A DNA stretch of 42,367 nucleotides. Origin: a virus. The notes under the pieces were generated by a model. That model saw nothing but the letters and a program-made list of their open reading frames with translations, was not told the DNA's origin and ran no database searches. The stretch is taken from positions 1 to 42,367 of IMG/VR virus record IMGVR_UViG_3300027743_000018; one strand, written 5' to 3'. Below are positions 1,821 through 40,603 of the stretch, piece by piece. The translations under genes were made by a program, and so were the position numbers. Numbering within the stretch: position 1 is the stretch's first letter; each line of letters opens with the position of its first letter.

Positions 1821-3644
1821 TCAGGCCCCCCTGCCCATGACGGCCGTCAGCTGCTGCAGCCCGGTCTCGGCGACCTGATCGACCTTCACGGCGACCTCGT
1901 TGCGGAAAAGTCCCATCACCTTGGGGCCGATGTGGAGATTGGCAAGCTCGACGCCCATCGCGCGCTCCAGATAGGTGGCGGCGGCGCGGACGACATCGTC
2001 GCCGTTGTTGCAGCCGCCGTCGGTGATCACCAGCATGACGCGCCTTCTGCCGTTGGCGCGCTTCGCCTGCAGGGTCGCGGCGAGCAGCATGTTCTCGGTC
2101 AGGGGGGTGGAGCCGCCGACCTGATTGTAGGCGTATGCGAACTTTCTGCCGTTCGGCTTCTCGCGGCCCTTGGTCATCAGGTCGAGGCCGCTGTCGGTGA
2201 ACACGTGGGCAGTGCAGTTGACGCCCACCTGCGACGCGGCCTGCGCGGCGGTCAGCGCGAGGGCGGCGGCGGCGAGAATGCGCGTGCCCGCCATCGAGCC
2301 CGAACCGTCGATCAGTATCTGCAGGTCGGTGTCGTAGCCCTCGCTGAGAACGCGCTTGCCGAATATCGTCTCGCTGCCGGTGGTCAGCTTGTGCAGGGCC
2401 TTGGTGTTGAGCCGGCCATTGAGGCGGCCGCCGTCGAAATCGTCCTGCTCCTCATGCTTGAGGGCGCGGGCCAGCAGCTGGCGCTGCTTGCCCATCTTCG
2501 AGGCGTTGCCCGTCACGAAAGCGACCGACCCGTCCGTATCGCGGCCGGCGATGCGGCGGTCGCCGACGCCCGCCTTGGACGCCTGCTCGGTGGCGCGGCG
2601 CAGGCCTTGGATGATCTCGCGCTGCGCTTGGGCCTCGTCGCTCTTCGACACCAGATTGCCCTCGGTCGTCGGGGCCATGTCGACAGGATCGACATCGCTG
2701 GCGGTGAACTCGTCGGCAGGCTTGGGCTTGCCACCACCACCACCCTGCACGGGGGCGGCATCGCCGGCCTCGTCAGCCTCGTCGGCTTCAGCCTCTGCCC
2801 CGGGGGCATCGGGGTCATCGCGATCCTCCATCATGCCGCCCTGTTCGGCCACAGGAGCCTGCTCAGAGGCTCCAGCCTCGTCGGCGGTGTCAGACGCCTC
2901 GCCGGCCTCGTCGGCCTCTGGCGCGGCCTCTACGGCCTCAGGCTCGGCATCCTGCGCCTTCTCGGCGAGCATGGCGGCATTGATCGCGGCCACGACCTTG
3001 TCGGCCAGATCGAGGCAATCCCGCGTCGACTGGCAGGCCTTGAGGTCGGCGAGGGCCCACGGCACGACCTGCCCGACGATGCCGTTCGGATTGAGGTTGC
3101 GGGTGATGTCGGAGATGTCGACCGCGTAACCGTTGGCGTGACGGCCCAGCGTGGACAGCGTCCAGCCGATCGAGCGCGGATTGTTCGGGTTGTAGCCGTT
3201 CACGACCGCCTTGGTATGCAGCATGTCGATCAGTTCCGACAGGACCTTCACGGCGTTGTGCGCGATGCCGCGATCGATCGTGCGCTTCTCGATGCGGACG
3301 TCTTCCAGCGCATTCAGCAGCTGGTGGCGGTTGGTGCGGACAGCTCCCTGCCACGTCACCTTGCAGGTGTCGTTGGGGTGGCCGACCTCGTGCAGGCCAT
3401 AGGCCGCCCAATGCCGGAACTCGTCGGCCGACATGCGGTAGGTGGCCTTGCGCACGGGCATGTTGACGGTGACGCGGACGTAAGTCTCGACGCCCGGGGT
3501 GCCTTTCCAGTCGACCGACGCGGTGCCGGAAATGGCATCCGCGACAACGCGGACGTTGAAAATGGTGTTCGGATAGCTCGCCTTCAGCAGGTCGGTGATG
3601 ACGATCTGCAGGGCGTCGAGGGCCTGCGGGTAGAGGTAGGACAT
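1821..3644 (-). CDS. CobT/DUF2201-type metallopeptidase-VWA protein, 607 aa
   Basis: Residues 85-89 are HEVGH, a zinc-protease HExxH motif, followed by NALEDVRIE with Glu114 as the likely third ligand. Residues about 225-310 are an Ala/Glu/Asp-rich linker. The C-terminal VWA domain has a complete MIDAS: DGSGS at 446-450, Thr in GGSTPL (about 513) and Asp in ITDGG (about 542). In bacteria such proteins pair with MoxR/CobS-type AAA+ ATPases as substrate-binding or metal-insertion partners, and the partner is next door (3717-5171). The start follows GGAGTAACGACC. Genes like this are often named cobaltochelatase CobT; no cobalamin genes are here, so that role is unlikely. Confidence 0.85.
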   Translation of the reverse strand: MSYLYPQALDALQIVITDLLKASYPNTIFNVRVVADAISGTASVDWKGTPGVETYVRVTVNMPVRKATYRMSADEFRHWAAYGLHEVGHPNDTCKVTWQGAVRTNRHQLLNALEDVRIEKRTIDRGIAHNAVKVLSELIDMLHTKAVVNGYNPNNPRSIGWTLSTLGRHANGYAVDISDITRNLNPNGIVGQVVPWALADLKACQSTRDCLDLADKVVAAINAAMLAEKAQDAEPEAVEAAPEADEAGEASDTADEAGASEQAPVAEQGGMMEDRDDPDAPGAEAEADEADEAGDAAPVQGGGGGKPKPADEFTASDVDPVDMAPTTEGNLVSKSDEAQAQREIIQGLRRATEQASKAGVGDRRIAGRDTDGSVAFVTGNASKMGKQRQLLARALKHEEQDDFDGGRLNGRLNTKALHKLTTGSETIFGKRVLSEGYDTDLQILIDGSGSMAGTRILAAAALALTAAQAASQVGVNCTAHVFTDSGLDLMTKGREKPNGRKFAYAYNQVGGSTPLTENMLLAATLQAKRANGRRRVMLVITDGGCNNGDDVVRAAATYLERAMGVELANLHIGPKVMGLFRNEVAVKVDQVAETGLQQLTAVMGRGA

Positions 3645-3683
3645 GGTCGTTACTCCGTTGGGGTTGGTGTCGTTGGAGCCCCG

Positions 3684-3712
3684 TATATAGGGGCTCCAAT
3701 TGAAGAGTTCAA
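3684..3712 (-). promoter_or_regulatory. Early leftward promoter with operator dyad
   Basis: Read leftward: -35 TTGAAC (3712-3707), a 17-nt spacer, -10 TATATA (3689-3684). The dyad TTGAACTCTTCAA (3700-3712) is identical to those at 1604-1616 and 5238-5250. It lies between the AAA+ gene (stop 3717) and the metallopeptidase-VWA gene (ATG 3644), giving the latter its own promoter. Confidence 0.75.
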
Positions 3713-3716
3713 GGGG

Positions 3717-5171
3717 TCAGAACGCATTATCCGCGAAGGCCTCGGACGCGGCGGAGGAGGAGGGAGCCTGCGGCGCGGTCTGGCCCAGCATGAGGGCCTC
3801 GAACTCGGCACCCCACTGCAGCGTGGCCATCGTCTCCATGGCGGCGCGCTCGGTGGCGGGAAGCCGGGTCAGCACCGCCATCTCGAAGGCGGACTTGGCA
3901 CCGAACCCATCCTTGAAGGCTCCGACGAAGCCGACCATCTGCCGCAGGCTGAGGGCAACGCCCTCCATCTCGGGCAGCTTGCGGGCACGCGCCATGAACT
4001 CGGCGACATGCTCGGCAGCGGGCAGCGGAATGCCGGTGTGCTGGGTCAGGGCGGAGGCTTCCTGCGCCTTGGTGAGATAATCGACGCGCACCATGCGCTT
4101 GAAGCGGTTCACCAGCGAGGCGTTGGCGGGATTGGTGCCGGCGTACTGGCCGGTCTCGTCGCCCGACCCGTTGGTGTTGTCGGTGATCACGAAGCACACG
4201 CCCGGGGCGACCTTCACGACCTCGCCCGTGGCATGCACGGTATAGGTCCGGTGATCGTCGGTCATGTTCTGGATGATCATCTGCGCGCCGGCGCTCATCA
4301 CCATCGGCTCCTCGATCACGATGACCGTGCCCGGGCGGCGGATCGCTTCCAGCAGCGCGCCATCCTTCCAGAAGGTGGTGCCATCCTTCGCAGCCATGGA
4401 GCCGACGAGGTCGCCGACGTCGGTCTGCTTGGTGCAGGTGATCTTCACGCAGGGGCGACCCGTGAACGCGGCGAACATCTGCACCATCGTGGTCTTGCCA
4501 CTGCCTGACGGCCCGACGGCCCAGACGTTGGTCTCATGCTCGCCGGCGAGGGCAAGGGCCGCCATCGCCTCGACGTCGACCACGTAGAACGGATCGACCA
4601 CGGGAGCGACGCCGTGCGCCTCCCACAGCGACACCGGCTTCTTGCCGAACGCCTGCGAGGTCCGCACGCCGAACAGCTTGGCGAACTCGATCGTCGCGCC
4701 GGTCTTCGTGGCGTAGGGGATCGCACCGAGCGGGGCCTGCGGCGCGGCCGCGACAGTCACGACCTTCTCGACGGTCTGCACGACCGCAGGCTTGTTGGCG
4801 GCGGCGACGACCGGGAGCAGCGCCTGCTCCAGTTCGCGCTTCACCAGCGGGGACAGGAACTGCTCGACGCCCGACAGAAGGCTCTCGACGTCGAAGTTGC
4901 TGGTGATCGGCGTGGGTGAGGTCATGACCATCGAGCCCATGGCGTTGGAGTGCGGAACGAACGCGCCGGTCGGCGCGCTGCCGGTGATCTGGGCGATGAT
5001 CTGCTCGACCTCGGGCAGGATGTCATGCTCGACGGCAAAGACCAGCAGGTCGGCGTTCTTCGCCTCGCGGCTCTCGATGCCCTTGGCGGCGATCCACGCT
5101 TCCCACGCGGTGTGAGCCTTGACGAAGGCGCGGACGGCACCGCGAGCGGCGGTCGGGATCTGGATGTTCAT
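3717..5171 (-). CDS. MoxR/CobS-type AAA+ ATPase, 484 aa
   Basis: Walker A GPSGSGKTT is at residues 220-228, Walker B VIVIEEP at 283-289, a sensor-1 region ITDNTN at about 329-334 and the arginine-finger stretch NRFKR at about 355-359. The N-terminal 200 residues hold a helical region and a variable linker. AAA+ ATPases of this group remodel or load partners through VWA-domain proteins; the partner is encoded immediately downstream under an identical operator. The start follows GGAGTAACGACC at 5171; longer frames upstream lack such a box. The phage substrate is unknown. Confidence 0.88.
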   Translation of the reverse strand: MNIQIPTAARGAVRAFVKAHTAWEAWIAAKGIESREAKNADLLVFAVEHDILPEVEQIIAQITGSAPTGAFVPHSNAMGSMVMTSPTPITSNFDVESLLSGVEQFLSPLVKRELEQALLPVVAAANKPAVVQTVEKVVTVAAAPQAPLGAIPYATKTGATIEFAKLFGVRTSQAFGKKPVSLWEAHGVAPVVDPFYVVDVEAMAALALAGEHETNVWAVGPSGSGKTTMVQMFAAFTGRPCVKITCTKQTDVGDLVGSMAAKDGTTFWKDGALLEAIRRPGTVIVIEEPMVMSAGAQMIIQNMTDDHRTYTVHATGEVVKVAPGVCFVITDNTNGSGDETGQYAGTNPANASLVNRFKRMVRVDYLTKAQEASALTQHTGIPLPAAEHVAEFMARARKLPEMEGVALSLRQMVGFVGAFKDGFGAKSAFEMAVLTRLPATERAAMETMATLQWGAEFEALMLGQTAPQAPSSSAASEAFADNAF

Positions 5172-5221
5172 GGTCGTTACTCCGATTGGCGGGCGGCAGT
5201 CCATCTGCGGCCGGTCCACCA

Positions 5222-5250
5222 CATATACGAGCCCTCGTTGAAGAGTTCAA
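5222..5250 (-). promoter_or_regulatory. Early leftward promoter with operator dyad
   Basis: Read leftward: -35 TTGAAC (5250-5245), a 17-nt spacer, -10 TATATG (5227-5222), with the dyad TTGAACTCTTCAA at 5238-5250. The stop codon of the upstream gene (5249-5247) lies inside the -35 box. It drives the AAA+ ATPase starting at 5171. Confidence 0.75.
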
Positions 5251-34489: not shown

Positions 34490-35443
34490 TCAGGTGCCGG
34501 TGAGGACGATCCTGCCCTGCATCGACCTATTGGAGAGCGTGAGGGCTCCCATGAAGGCGATGTGCTTGGTGATGGCGTCCATGTCGACACTCTGGTCCGG
34601 CAGGTCGAGGGCCTCGAAGTTGCGACCTTCGTAGATCTCGAACTTGAGGTACTTGGTGTTGAGCATGTAGCCGCCCACCAGACCCGTCGCCGCGCCGTCG
34701 AACACAAGGGCTCCAGACTTGTACTTCAGCGTCTCGAAGCCGAGGGCTCCGAGCTTGGCGTCGGTATAACGCTGGTTCTCTTGCAAGCCTCCCTCATACG
34801 TCGAATAGATTTCGCCATCGACCACGACGAGATCGGGATGCTCGGTGCCCCGGATCAGCTTGATCCAGAGTGCATTGAGACCGGCCTTGAGGGCCGGGTA
34901 TTGAAGTCCAGTCGCGCGGGCGATCGAGACGAACTGGTTCTTCCAGAAGGTCCACGTGCCGCTGTCGATGCCGCCGACGATGCCGGTGCCGGCGTCGGTG
35001 ACCATCGCCTTCAGGCCGGCGAACGACTTGGCGACGGTGCCGTCCGAATAGATCGCCTTGGTGATGTTGTTCTTCATCGTCACCTCGGCGTTGGTCATCT
35101 TGCCCTCAAGGAGGTTCAGGATGCGCTCGCGGCCCTTGTTCTTGGCGAGGTCGGGGCCTGACAGGGTGACGCTGGCGACGGCGTTGGCGGGCTCGTAGTC
35201 GGCCTCGGAGATGGTCTCCTTGACCGCACGGGAGAGCAGTTCGCTGCCCATGTACCAAGAGAAATACTCCTCGGCATAGGTCAGAGGGCAGGCGATGGAA
35301 CGGCCGCCGTCGACGGTCCGCATCCGGTTGCCTTCGCGCAGAAGGGCCGTCACGGCGTTCGAGTTGGCGACGTTGTCGGCGAAAGTCTTGTGGTAGTTGG
35401 CCAGCGTGGTTGCGACCAGCTGGTTGACGGTTGGTTCGGCCAT
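34490..35443 (-). CDS. Major capsid protein, HK97 fold, 317 aa
   Basis: The order N-arm (MAEPTVNQLVATTLANYHKT), E-loop-like region (GGRSIACPLTYAEEYFSWYM), spine helix (KGRERILNLLEGKMTNAEVT), P-domain and A-domain (LIRGTEHPDLVVVDGEIYSTYEGG), and the MLNTKYLKFEIYEG strand matches HK97-type capsid proteins of short-tailed phages. There is no obvious N-terminal scaffold domain, consistent with a separate scaffold gene upstream. RBS GGAGCCCCGGCC before the ATG. Confidence 0.88.
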   Translation of the reverse strand: MAEPTVNQLVATTLANYHKTFADNVANSNAVTALLREGNRMRTVDGGRSIACPLTYAEEYFSWYMGSELLSRAVKETISEADYEPANAVASVTLSGPDLAKNKGRERILNLLEGKMTNAEVTMKNNITKAIYSDGTVAKSFAGLKAMVTDAGTGIVGGIDSGTWTFWKNQFVSIARATGLQYPALKAGLNALWIKLIRGTEHPDLVVVDGEIYSTYEGGLQENQRYTDAKLGALGFETLKYKSGALVFDGAATGLVGGYMLNTKYLKFEIYEGRNFEALDLPDQSVDMDAITKHIAFMGALTLSNRSMQGRIVLTGT

Positions 35444-36619: not shown

Positions 36620-36893
36620 TCTCGGCTTTCCGCGCGGCTTTCGCCTTCGCGATCGGGTGCGTGGGACCTATGTCCCGTTCGTCATAGGAGTTCGACTTGA
36701 ATAAGTCCAGTTCGCGCTGGCGGTCGGAGGAGATGGTCTTCTCGGTCACAGGGCTCTGATAGCTCTCGAAGCGGCTGACGAAGAAGGTCCACATGTCGTT
36801 GCGCAGGTCGCGACTGCGCCGGTTGATCTCGTCGTTCAGCACCGCCCGGCGCTTGTCGACGAGCTTGCCGTCCCGGTAGACGTAGACGGTCAC
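36576..36893 (-). CDS. Hypothetical protein, 105 aa
   Basis: A GTG start at 36893 overlaps the upstream stop (GTGA), and the gene ends inside the scaffold gene. The N-terminus VYVYRDGKLVDK is a beta hairpin like those at the starts of short phage proteins; the rest is highly charged (DEINRRSRDLRNDMW, then a Lys/Ala-rich tail). Possibly an assembly accessory protein. Confidence 0.65.
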   Translation of the reverse strand: MTVYVYRDGKLVDKRRAVLNDEINRRSRDLRNDMWTFFVSRFESYQSPVTEKTISSDRQRELDLFKSNSYDERDIGPTHPIAKAKAARKAENARPAGPKQPDFWR

Positions 36894-37183
36894 GACTTTT
36901 TCTTTCGTCCACGCGGGGTGTCGACGTAGTAGTCCCCGGCAACCTCGGACGCGCTGACAATGTCGACCTCGGGCTCCGTCGGCTCGTAGGCCATGGCACC
37001 GGCGATCACGCCGCCGGCGGCGAGGTTCTCGATCGATTGCGGTTCCCAGTGTTCGGCGTCGGTCAGCGCCTGCATCGGATGCACGCGCAGGGTGACGGCC
37101 GCGAAGTCCGGCGGGGCTCCGGTCGGGTAGGGCTCGTTGGGTTCGACGGTGACGGGCGTGGCGCGGGGCAGTGCTTCCGGCAT
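36890..37183 (-). CDS. Hypothetical protein, 97 aa
   Basis: The ATG at 37183 has GGAGA seven bases upstream; ATGs at 37189 and 37198 are too close to that site. It is Pro/Glu-rich at first (EALPRATPVTVEPNEPYP), then contains VTLRVHPMQALTDAE and ends in a basic GRKKKS. No family recognised. It lies directly after the Acb2-like gene. Confidence 0.6.
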   Translation of the reverse strand: MPEALPRATPVTVEPNEPYPTGAPPDFAAVTLRVHPMQALTDAEHWEPQSIENLAAGGVIAGAMAYEPTEPEVDIVSASEVAGDYYVDTPRGRKKKS

Positions 37184-37185
37184 GC

Positions 37186-37413
37186 TCATTTCTCCCATGC
37201 TTGCTTGGTGGCGGCCTTGACAGCCCACATCGCGGCATCCTCGGCACAGGTCTGGGCCTGCGCCTTCAGCCGCCGGATTTCACCCTCGTCGTGATCGGGG
37301 ATGGTCTCGATCAGGTCGATGGCCTCGGCCGCCAGCTGCTTGATGCGGTCGACCATCTCGCTCTTCGAGGGGTTGAAGCTGATGCCGACGCGGTACTCGC
37401 CCTTGGTGGTCAT
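37186..37413 (-). CDS. acb2: Acb2/Tad1-like hairpin-domain protein (anti-CBASS cyclic-nucleotide sponge), 75 aa
   Basis: The sequence fits the Acb2/Tad1 helical-hairpin family: a short N-terminal strand GEYRVGISFNPS, helix EMVDRIKQLAAEAIDLIE, a DHDEGEIRRLKAQAQTC helix and the hallmark ending AAMWAVKAATK. Acb2 proteins of phages such as PaMx33 and T4 (Vs.4) form oligomers that sequester cyclic di- and trinucleotides, blocking CBASS (and, in relatives, Thoeris) immunity. As in other phages it sits among structural genes. Identification is by pattern; ligand residues were not mapped. Confidence 0.72.
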   Translation of the reverse strand: MTTKGEYRVGISFNPSKSEMVDRIKQLAAEAIDLIETIPDHDEGEIRRLKAQAQTCAEDAAMWAVKAATKQAWEK

Positions 37414-37424
37414 ATTCTCCCCTG

Positions 37425-38030
37425 TCAGGTGAAGGTGAAGTTGGCTCCGGCCGACTTGACGCCGTGGTCGATCACCTTGACCACGACGATGCCGGGGCTG
37501 GAGCGCCCGGGGTCCATCAGCACCGCCATCTTCGTCGGCGAAATGTAGCGGTGATACGGCGTGTACACGTTGCCGGTCTCGACGGTGGAATACTGGGTGA
37601 ACTTGGTGCCGGTGATGGTCACCCAGATCGGCACCGCGCCGACGGCGGTGACGGCGGTGTTGGGCGCGAGCGACGAGATCGTCGGGTCGTCGGTGGGCGA
37701 GACGGGCGCGGGGTTGTAAGGCTCGTTCGGGCCGATCCAGCCGCGCGGCTCGGTGATGATGGTGGCGACCGTCAGAGGGGGGTTCATGGCGGCCGCCTTC
37801 TCGGCATGGGTGCGGGGGGTGTACGCACCTGTCGAGTTCGTGGTGGCTTGGTTCTCGTCGCCGTAGGCACCGCCATTGTAGGTCACGACGGGCACGTTGA
37901 TCGGCGGGTAGCCGCCAACCGGCACCGCCGGAGGGAACTTGTGCCAGTTCTTGGGCGTGATCTCGGAGACCACGGCGGCTGCGAGGACGGGGTCCTGAGC
38001 GCGGCGGACGGAAAAAGCCTGCAGTGCCAT
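37425..38030 (-). CDS. IPT/TIG-like Ig-domain virion protein, 201 aa
   Basis: The ATG at 38030 follows GGAGACTTACC; an upstream in-frame start is rejected. Residues about 110-200 (DPTISSLAPNTAVTAVGAVP, IWVTITGTKFTQYST, GIVVVKVIDHGVKSAGANFTF) are an IPT/TIG-like Ig fold common on capsid decoration and tail proteins. It lies between the portal and capsid genes, so a capsid decoration role is plausible. Confidence 0.65.
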   Translation of the reverse strand: MALQAFSVRRAQDPVLAAAVVSEITPKNWHKFPPAVPVGGYPPINVPVVTYNGGAYGDENQATTNSTGAYTPRTHAEKAAAMNPPLTVATIITEPRGWIGPNEPYNPAPVSPTDDPTISSLAPNTAVTAVGAVPIWVTITGTKFTQYSTVETGNVYTPYHRYISPTKMAVLMDPGRSSPGIVVVKVIDHGVKSAGANFTFT

Positions 38031-38061
38031 GGTAAGTCTCCGCTTACAGTAAGTTACATGC

Positions 38062-38313
38062 TCAGGTCGGCGTGGCCGACTTGTAGTAGCCATTGCGGAT
38101 CCAGAAGCCAGACCCGGCCGCCAGCGGCGTCCCCGTCGGGTAGGGAAGCAAGGCGTCGCCCGCCGCCGGATTGACGATGGTCACCGCGACGCCGTGGACG
38201 GCAGTGCGGTAGCCGTCGATCGGGGTCGGCCACGTTCCCGGCACGATGGCCTGCGGCTCGATTTCCGGGGTGTCGCGGGGGGTCGAGGTCTTGCTGGTGC
38301 GGTCGCTGGCCAT
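38062..38313 (-). CDS. Small hypothetical virion-operon protein, 83 aa
   Basis: RBS AGGACCTGTC before the ATG at 38313. The N-terminus is charged and disordered (SDRTSKTSTPRDTPEIEP) and the rest is a small beta domain (DGYRTAVHGVAVTIVNPAAG, GSGFWIRNGYYKS). It follows the portal gene and precedes the Ig-domain protein. Function unknown. Confidence 0.65.
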   Translation of the reverse strand: MASDRTSKTSTPRDTPEIEPQAIVPGTWPTPIDGYRTAVHGVAVTIVNPAAGDALLPYPTGTPLAAGSGFWIRNGYYKSATPT

Positions 38314-38344: not shown

Positions 38345-40603
38345 TCATTGCATCGGCATCCCGGGCGGCATTGCCCCGTTACCCTGCGGTGGCGGCGGAC
38401 CCCCGGGCGGCGGTGACGCGCCCATGCCCGGAGGCGGCATCGACATCGGCAGCATAGGGTTCATCATCTGCGCCTGCAACTGCTCTTGGAAGTTGTCGAT
38501 CATGTCGACGACGCCACGGGAATTGCGGATCGGGTGGATCATCATCTTGATCAGTTCCAGCGTGAACTGGATGACCATCGGGGGAGGAAGGACGCCGGTC
38601 TGGAGAAGGCCGGCGGCGTTCTGCATGATGCCTTGGCACGCCATCATGATCTTGGCGTTGCTCTCCTGCTCGATCTGCTCGTCGACGGAGACGGTGCTGT
38701 CGGTCTCGATGTCGATCGAACACGTGCGCTGGAAGTCGTCGCGCAGGATCGCCTCGATGGCGGGGGTCACTTCCTCGCCGGTCATTCTGGTGAGTGTTGA
38801 GGCATCGAAGTTGGTGGCGATGATCTCCGCCTTCATGCGCAGGAGTTCGCGGGCGAAATTCGCGCATATGTCCTTCTGGGCGGTGAGGCGGTTGGTGCCC
38901 ATGGTGCCCTTGATGCGCTGGGCGGTGGCGGTCTCGTAGGGGGACGAGGAACCGCGCATGATGTCGGAAATGCCCATCACTTCGTAGATCGCCTGCTTGA
39001 TCTGCTCGCGGGCGACGTAGAGTTCCTTGAGCGCGTTGACCCAGTCGATGATGGGGACGAGCCAGATGTGATTTTGAAGACCGCCGTTGATCAGGTCGAC
39101 GCCGGCGACGGGAAGCATCTTGCCGTCGTCGGCGGTCAGCAGTCCTGCAATATCGCGGTTGGATGCGTTGTAACCCCCTCGCACCTTGATCTTGTCGGTG
39201 AGTGCGGAAATGCGACGGCTGGTATCATCAAGGTCCGCCGCAAGGCGGCTGTATAGGTCGTAGTAAGGCCTTGGAAGCATACTGTCCGTCGTGGTGACAG
39301 CCAGTAGGGGCTTTGGCACGGGAAAGAACCCAGAAAGGCCCAGACTGTCGGGGTCAACACGTAGAACAAGGCCGTCGACCTCCCTGATGAACCAGATGAC
39401 CTTGCCAAGGTTCTTGGCCCAGATCTCCCATACCATGGCCTTCTTGATGACGCCGCCCAATTTGTTGGCGGTCTTCATCGCGGAGCCGCCGCCGACCACG
39501 GACTTGGCGGCGCTTTCGTCGGTCCACTTGAGGATCTCCGACATCTTGTTGGCGGCCTTGTAGGCCTGAAGATCTTCGCTGTCGTCGAACTCCGAGAGGA
39601 GAGAGTTCTCGTCGAACAAGTGCCGGAAGGCGACCCAGCTGCCGTCGGCGAACTGGCGCACGGGATCGTACAGCACGTCCTCCCAGTAGACGTACTCGTC
39701 GGCGACGGTCTCCCAGATCTTGACGTCCTGCATCGCCGGCGGCGTGCCGGGCAGCGGGGGTGGTGCCATCGGGTCCGGGGGTGCCGGTTGGGATGAGATC
39801 TGCGGCTTCCAGCGCACCCGGCACGTCCCACGGCCGGGCAGCAGTACGTCCTTGACGGCGGCGCGGATGGCTTCGTGGGATTTGTCGTCGTCGACGACGA
39901 TGGTGAGAGCCTTCTGCATGACGGCGGCGGCCGTCTCGATGTCGTTCTGCTCCGGCATGCCGGGGGGAGGCGGCGCGGGCTGCGGCGGCATCATGGGGAG
40001 GGGCTGGCCCTCGGCAACCATCGGCTGCGGGACCTGCGGTGGCATTTCCGGGGGTGTGGTCGCCTCCGGGGGGAGGGGCGGCGGACCGCCGGGCGGCAAC
40101 GGAGCGGTGGGTCCGGCACCCGGCGGTCCCATGGGCGGCGGTAGTGGGCCCGCGCCCATGTCCTGCGGCGGCTGCAGCTCGACCTGTGGCAAGGGGGGAG
40201 GTCCCATGGGCGGCGGCGGCAGCGGCATCGGCATCGGAGGTGCCGATTTCTTGGCGAAGCGGCTTTTGACGACCGGCTGCGGCGGCGTCGCGTAGATGTT
40301 CGGCAGCATCACTTCGGTGTTGCTGAACAGGATATTGAAGACTATCTCGTCGTTGGTCTTCTTGGTGCCGATCGAGGTCTTTTTGCCGTCATTGCGGTAG
40401 ATGCGGATTATTTCGCGGCCCCGGGATCGCCAGTCGGCTTCGGCCTGTTCGGCATCCGCGAGGGCTCTTTCCCAGAAGCCGATGTCGATTTCCGGCTCTT
40501 CCTCATCAGGAGCCGCTGGAGCGACCGGAGGACGGTCAGGGCGTCCGGTTTCGGCCGAGAGGGTGGGGGCGACGCGGGGGTTGTCATCGATCGGGAACGC
40601 CAT
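38345..40603 (-). CDS. Portal protein with a proline-rich insertion, 752 aa
   Basis: It follows TerL by two bases. Portal-like helices and strands include ADWRSRGREIIRIYRNDG, DEIVFNILFSNTEVMLPNIY, VYWEDVLYDPVRQFADGSW, and the helical DISRGSS-like GISDIMRGSSSPYETATAQR with NARQ-type wing segments. It forms the dodecameric DNA gate. Residues about 121-219 are an unusually Pro/Met/Gly-rich insertion and a second Pro-rich tail ends the protein; low-complexity stretches may be exposed loops. Confidence 0.85.
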   Translation of the reverse strand: MAFPIDDNPRVAPTLSAETGRPDRPPVAPAAPDEEEPEIDIGFWERALADAEQAEADWRSRGREIIRIYRNDGKKTSIGTKKTNDEIVFNILFSNTEVMLPNIYATPPQPVVKSRFAKKSAPPMPMPLPPPPMGPPPLPQVELQPPQDMGAGPLPPPMGPPGAGPTAPLPPGGPPPLPPEATTPPEMPPQVPQPMVAEGQPLPMMPPQPAPPPPGMPEQNDIETAAAVMQKALTIVVDDDKSHEAIRAAVKDVLLPGRGTCRVRWKPQISSQPAPPDPMAPPPLPGTPPAMQDVKIWETVADEYVYWEDVLYDPVRQFADGSWVAFRHLFDENSLLSEFDDSEDLQAYKAANKMSEILKWTDESAAKSVVGGGSAMKTANKLGGVIKKAMVWEIWAKNLGKVIWFIREVDGLVLRVDPDSLGLSGFFPVPKPLLAVTTTDSMLPRPYYDLYSRLAADLDDTSRRISALTDKIKVRGGYNASNRDIAGLLTADDGKMLPVAGVDLINGGLQNHIWLVPIIDWVNALKELYVAREQIKQAIYEVMGISDIMRGSSSPYETATAQRIKGTMGTNRLTAQKDICANFARELLRMKAEIIATNFDASTLTRMTGEEVTPAIEAILRDDFQRTCSIDIETDSTVSVDEQIEQESNAKIMMACQGIMQNAAGLLQTGVLPPPMVIQFTLELIKMMIHPIRNSRGVVDMIDNFQEQLQAQMMNPMLPMSMPPPGMGASPPPGGPPPPQGNGAMPPGMPMQ

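Follow-up and report, generated by a model that had tools for sequence, protein, structure and literature searches.

A short open reading frame among the head genes of an uncultured phage recorded in IMG/VR (IMGVR_UViG_3300027743_000018) raises the question of whether a sponge for bacterial immune signals can reside in a structural operon. Tested members of the Acb2/Tad1 hairpin family soak up cyclic nucleotides, which act as bacterial infection alarms, and a preliminary description of this DNA had assigned a 75-aa protein to that group. In the window (the whole stretch of 42,367 nucleotides that was analyzed), the frame is present at 37186..37413 and lies on the minus strand, a detail missing from that description; it runs from an ATG at 37413 to a TGA at 37186, and its translation (MTTKGEYRVGISFNPSKSEMVDRIKQLAAEAIDLIETIPDHDEGEIRRLKAQAQTCAEDAAMWAVKAATKQAWEK) contains the motifs that had been quoted from it. 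An open frame of this size is by itself no evidence of coding, since the window has a GC content of 65.8% and contains 278 ORFs that are 50 aa or longer. Relatives were sought by a single scan of viral contigs with eight-residue patterns taken from the 75-aa protein. This short-peptide scan found relatives encoded in 377 viral stretches, the best 80 of which share 53-70% identity with it. An alignment of 20 diverse clade sequences has 25 invariant columns. Compared with its nearest relatives, the gene shows base differences that cluster at codon position 3 (dN 0.28, dS 1.1-1.5), and its codon-position GC resembles that of the adjoining genes. Additionally, a purine-rich, Shine-Dalgarno-like AGGGGAG (37417..37423, minus strand) lies 3 nt ahead of the ATG. 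The relatives, the invariant columns, a dN well below dS, the codon-position GC, and the AGGGGAG stretch together identify the 37413..37186 ORF as a genuine gene under purifying selection.

Its placement inside a structural operon, also claimed previously, is borne out by the neighboring genes, all on the minus strand. The order is terminase (42057-40606), portal protein (38345..40603; phrog_12082, E 2.3e-120), an 83-aa ORF, an IPT/TIG-domain protein (37425..38093; PF01833), the Acb2-like gene, a 99-aa ORF (36890..37189), a scaffold-like protein (36619-35459), and the major head protein (34490..35443; phrog_9953, E 2.1e-71). The TIG gene stops 11 nt before the ATG of the Acb2-like gene, whose own stop is overlapped by the ATG of the 99-aa ORF over 4 nt (ATGA). 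Given these two junctions and the AGGGGAG stretch, the Acb2-like gene is apparently translated as part of the head operon, with likely translational coupling to the 99-aa downstream gene, for which no family match was found. At the other end of the window, a 607-aa VWA/CobT-like gene (1821-3644, minus strand) adjoins a 501-aa MoxR/CobS-like AAA ATPase gene (3717-5222, minus strand; phrog_249). Such a CobT-like/CobS-like pair is otherwise familiar from cobalamin biosynthesis.

We next consider to which family the protein belongs. The Pfam profile PF24729 (Acb2_Tad1_hairpin) matches residues 13-69 with 44.9 bits (E 1.3e-11; curated cut-off 27) and is found in all 20 members of the clade alignment. 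The positive controls behaved as expected (T4 Vs.4, E 7.1e-20; PaP2/PaMx33-type Acb2, E 3.2e-18; SBSphiJ7 Tad1, E 2.9e-8), and the profile found no match in the reversed protein. The Acb2/Tad1 profile search that the preliminary description had suggested is thus positive. To avoid reliance on the Pfam name, we compared a profile of the clade itself with profiles of the verified families using hhalign, taking 40 column-shuffled versions of each as the null. The clade aligned with the PaP2-type Acb2 family at 95.3% (score 42.4; shuffled maximum 13.7), with Tad1 at 89.2% (36.7; 15.7), and with the T4 Acb2 family at 86.7% (33.7; 19.1). A profile search of PDB sequences gave 14 weak matches (E 0.6-1.1), none significant singly, among them the Acb2 homolog 9ptq, several Tad1 entries, and Vs.4. 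Single-sequence phmmer against the same sequences recovered no Acb2, the distance being too great, and the NCBIfam and PADLOC searches returned only sub-threshold noise. The sole PHROG match is phrog_717 (289 positions; function unknown), whose C-terminal end matches the hairpin (E 3e-6), which suggests larger phage proteins carrying a C-terminal hairpin domain. Judging from these profile comparisons, the 75-aa protein is a member of the Acb2/Tad1 hairpin family.

The predicted structure narrows this assignment. AlphaFold2, run with the clade alignment, returned a model with a pLDDT of 95.7 and helices at residues 4-9, 19-36, and 44-69. The predicted architecture is a short N-terminal helix followed by a two-helix hairpin. 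The Acb2 protomer has been described in the same terms, as a short N-terminal helix and two long helices (PMC10419184, PMC12043709). The model contains no beta domain, only helix and loop, and this points to a stand-alone hairpin of the Acb2 type and not to Tad1. We therefore rejected Tad1 membership for this all-helical protein of 75 aa, which has no N-terminal antiparallel beta-sheet domain. Of the sponge identity put forward originally, the Acb2-like part stands (PF24729; hhalign scores of 34-42 vs. 14-19 after shuffling), while the Tad1-like part falls with the missing beta domain. When the model was compared with the PDB by Foldseek, no solved structure of either Acb2 or Tad1 came up with an E-value of 10 or below. 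As a control, a T4 Acb2 model folded in the same way found itself at E 7e-10 and PaP2 Acb2 only at E 0.11-0.18. The search is thus weak for short hairpins, though not blind, and the negative result for the modeled 75-aa protein speaks only mildly against the Acb2 claim. The two long helices comprise 18 and 26 residues, vs. 33 and 32 in T4 Acb2. In a comparison with predicted viral structures, the top two Foldseek matches both bear the name Acb2/Tad1 hairpin protein (E 1.2e-5 and 2.2e-3).

The pattern of conserved residues may provide clues to the ligands. Across 64 distinct sequences, G5, F13, N14, P15, V21, K25, I32, D33, R48, A53, E58, and the ten residues of A61-MWAVKAAT-K70 (37204..37233, minus strand), which end the second long helix, are invariant. 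The hhalign and MAFFT alignments pair K25 (codon 37339..37341, minus) with K23 of T4 Acb2 and K26 of PaP2-type Acb2, and R48 (37270..37272, minus) with R67 of the latter. They also pair T55 (37249..37251, minus), present in 60 of the 64 sequences, with T74 of PaP2-type and T68 of T4 Acb2, and M62 and K66 with M81 and R85 of PaP2-type Acb2. Helix 2 keeps the spacing as well: R48-T55, T55-M62, and M62-K66 lie 7, 7, and 4 residues apart, exactly as in R67-T74-M81-R85. These are highly conserved positions in the PaP2-type family (K26 and R85, 69/69; M81, 68/69; T74, 61/69; R67, 59/69). Hence, a helix-1 lysine together with a helix-2 R-x6-T-x6-M-x3-(R/K) is present in the form of K25, R48, T55, M62, and K66. 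We take K26 and R67 of PaP2-type Acb2 to be ligand-binding residues, with R67 contacting cA3. The R48/T55 pair is shared with PaP2-type Acb2 and is not kept in the T4 family; combined with the R67-cA3 contact assumed above, we would predict from this analysis that the 75-aa protein keeps the trinucleotide pocket. In T4 Acb2, T68M weakens binding (PMC12657230). The N-terminal aromatic residue is less simply placed: Pfam equates F13 (codon 37375..37377, minus; Pfam position 2) with Y8 of T4 and Y11 of PaP2/PaMx33-type Acb2, whereas MAFFT places the equivalent in the GEYR segment. The substitution Y8A in T4 Acb2 abolishes function (PMC12657218, PMC12657230). F82 of T4 Acb2 stacks on the ligand (PMC12657218). 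Its position is occupied by an invariant T69 in the clade and by Ala in PaP2-type Acb2, so that this aromatic residue is dispensable.

On the profile, alignment, and model evidence, we put forward as quite probable that the gene encodes a minimal stand-alone cyclic-oligonucleotide sponge of the Acb2 type. The Foldseek result, the shorter hairpin, T69 at the place of T4's F82, and the disagreement of Pfam and MAFFT over the N-terminus count against it. By analogy with verified Acb2 members, six copies would associate as a compact hexamer. The head-to-head protomer interfaces (F13, K25, and the end of the C-terminal helix) would accommodate cyclic dinucleotides, and the three-fold ends (R48, T55) cyclic trinucleotides, neither kind being cleaved once bound. 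Free CBASS signal during infection would then become too scarce to set off the suicide effector, and cA3 of type III CRISPR might possibly be soaked up too. Gene order in the head operon implies that the sponge would be made alongside the capsid proteins.

In an alternative scenario, which we consider unlikely, the protein is a sponge for a signal other than that of CBASS, such as the gcADPR of Thoeris (as in Tad1), the c-di-AMP of Panoptes-type systems, or an undescribed cyclic nucleotide. Over the second helix, the profile-profile comparison shows the Tad1 hairpin to be about as similar as Acb2, and an invariant N-terminal motif peculiar to the clade, GEYRVGI-FNPS, is absent from Acb2. However, the Tad1 pocket uses loops of the N-terminal beta domain (PMC12043709), which the all-helical protein does not possess, and the positions retained in the clade are those of Acb2. 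A search for tRNAs to assign a host found none in the window. The terminase is nearest to those of Manatee Spring and Pseudanabaena phages, and the head protein to those of Bradyrhizobium, Stenotrophomonas, and Myxococcus phages (34-45% identity), while the nearest relatives of the Acb2-like protein in genomes come from Paracoccus, Defluviimonas, Camelimonas, Bradyrhizobium, and Bacteroidota. An SMODS-type CD-NTase scored above cut-off in only 4 of the 16 genomes that carry relatives, a further point for a non-CBASS signal. Among 387 alphaproteobacteria, an SMODS CD-NTase occurs in 2/8 PF24729 carriers vs. 16/379 others, a marginal enrichment (one-sided p 0.048). We set this co-occurrence aside as evidence given the small sample, the choice of the centre genome as a carrier, and the confounding effect of genome size. 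These marginal and confounded counts do not establish that the host lineage uses CBASS.

To place the presumptive Acb2-type sponge in a wider setting, the context of the gene was surveyed in 66 non-redundant viral loci. Terminase, portal, or major head protein genes lie within 6 kb in 25 of these; helicase, primase, DNA polymerase, ribonucleotide reductase, or Cas4-exonuclease genes are near in 21; and the remaining 20 loci are unassigned or have neighbors of other kinds only. Among isolated phages, FCL-2, EcP1, and the elemo phages have the gene in a group of small genes; in Aaphi23 and Pmp11 it separates the lysis genes from terminase, and in PS3 internal virion genes flank it. Relatives also occur in isolate and metagenome-assembled genomes of Alpha- and Gammaproteobacteria and Bacteroidota. 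As anticipated in the preliminary description, the gene is labeled hypothetical in the annotated phage records inspected. One such case is Microbacterium phage Pabst gp50 (L231, 433-684), an 83-aa "hypothetical protein" matching PF24729 (E 9.8e-15) and located two genes before the terminase gene; it represents another unannotated Acb2-like gene.

Some loci show further peculiarities. Between the portal and the Acb2-like gene, contig L014 carries a GroES-like co-chaperonin gene (3449-3892; phrog_3188), an arrangement shared with L020, L025, L028, L042, L056, and others. In L029, L030, and L031, the Acb2-like ORF is 143 aa long, with a C-terminal extension of ~70 residues beyond AMWAVKAATK, and is flanked by portal and major head protein. 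Seven contigs of one Rhodobacteraceae metagenome-assembled genome (L103-L109) hold seven near-identical copies (~99%) of a phage-like element whose genes, named from reading the ORFs, include an amidase endolysin, the Acb2-like hairpin, and a DNA-adenine-methylase-like gene. We regard this element as a probable Mu-like prophage present in multiple copies, its lysis module carrying the sponge gene.

The survey also bears on whether the protein is a small structural or assembly component of the head that adopted a hairpin fold by chance. This we judge very unlikely, even though the gene lies between portal and major head protein in the window, in L021, and in L029, and just downstream of the portal in ~10 L014-like contigs. 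Close relatives are found beside helicase-primase, ribonucleotide reductase, or Cas4-exonuclease genes (the 21/66 loci near replication genes) and, in isolated phages, in small-gene or lysis modules, and no head or packaging family matched the protein, PF24729 matching instead. Given that the contexts of the relatives vary, with no fixed place among head genes, we rejected a structural role. A well-conserved sequence that turns up in different operons of unrelated phages is more readily explained by a portable, accessory counter-defence gene directed at an unvarying small molecule than by a component of the head. Finally, the least credible reading is a family member that has degenerated or does not bind, kept without sponge function. 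The shorter hairpin relative to T4 Vs.4 and the replacement of F82 by T69 speak for it; strong selection speaks against it, with 25 columns invariant in the alignment of 20 diverse sequences, Acb2-conserved positions under selection too, and dN far below dS.

If the gene does encode an Acb2-type sponge, its position invites a further hypothesis. Phages that lose acb2 can escape CBASS via mutations in the major capsid protein (PMC10419184), and a sponge encoded beside capsid genes might therefore match antidote to trigger. Extending this, several phage lineages may have placed the sponge in the head operon, where it would be co-translated with capsid proteins linked to CBASS triggering and so kept in step with them, and the clade defined by GEYRVGI-FNPS...AMWAVKAATK would be a common environmental form of Acb2 with a ligand range of its own. 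We offer this as a speculative proposal that is rather unlikely to hold in full.

As far as sequence comparison can tell, the protein is a new member of the known Acb2/Tad1 hairpin family. Although Acb2 has been called rare (PMC11722364), the GEYRVGI-FNPS clade appears common in environmental phages, and, with 377 viral stretches as well as bacterial genomes encoding relatives, the tested members seem to underrepresent how far the sponge family has spread. Being compact and predicted with confidence, the clade also lends itself to testing which nucleotide signals phages outside model hosts must neutralise.

How, then, does the protein compare with known systems? The closest match among predicted viral structures is A0A6J5LWM4, an Acb2/Tad1 hairpin domain-containing protein of an uncultured Caudovirales phage. 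It shares 48% identity with the 75-aa protein and was recovered by Foldseek at E 1.2e-5, with a TM of 0.81 relative to the query length; this database entry takes its name from the domain, and we know of no function test for it. Tad1 (SBSphiJ7; PDB 7UAV, 8KBE, and others) shares the C-terminal hairpin, with an R-x4-A-x-T-x2-E-x3-MW aligning ungapped with residues 48-63, but has ~120-142 aa and an N-terminal beta domain that forms the gcADPR/CDN pocket, absent here. T4 Acb2 (Vs.4; PDB 7UQ2) also matches PF24729, closes its last helix with the same MWA-(K/R)A signature, and has T68 where T55 stands here; in contrast, it lacks an equivalent of R48, carries F82 in place of T69, and has much longer helices. 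PaP2/PaMx33-type Acb2 of Pseudomonas phage (PDB 8H2J, 8H2X, 8IXZ) differs in its N-terminal segment (GYRDLSQEE there, GEYRVGI-FNPS here) and in its longer hairpin, with 24% identity over ~54 columns, and the hexamer and binding are predictions in the case of the protein described here. Nevertheless, both are small stand-alone helical proteins matching PF24729, and K26, R67, T74, M81, and R85 of PaP2-type Acb2 correspond to K25, R48, T55, M62, and K66.
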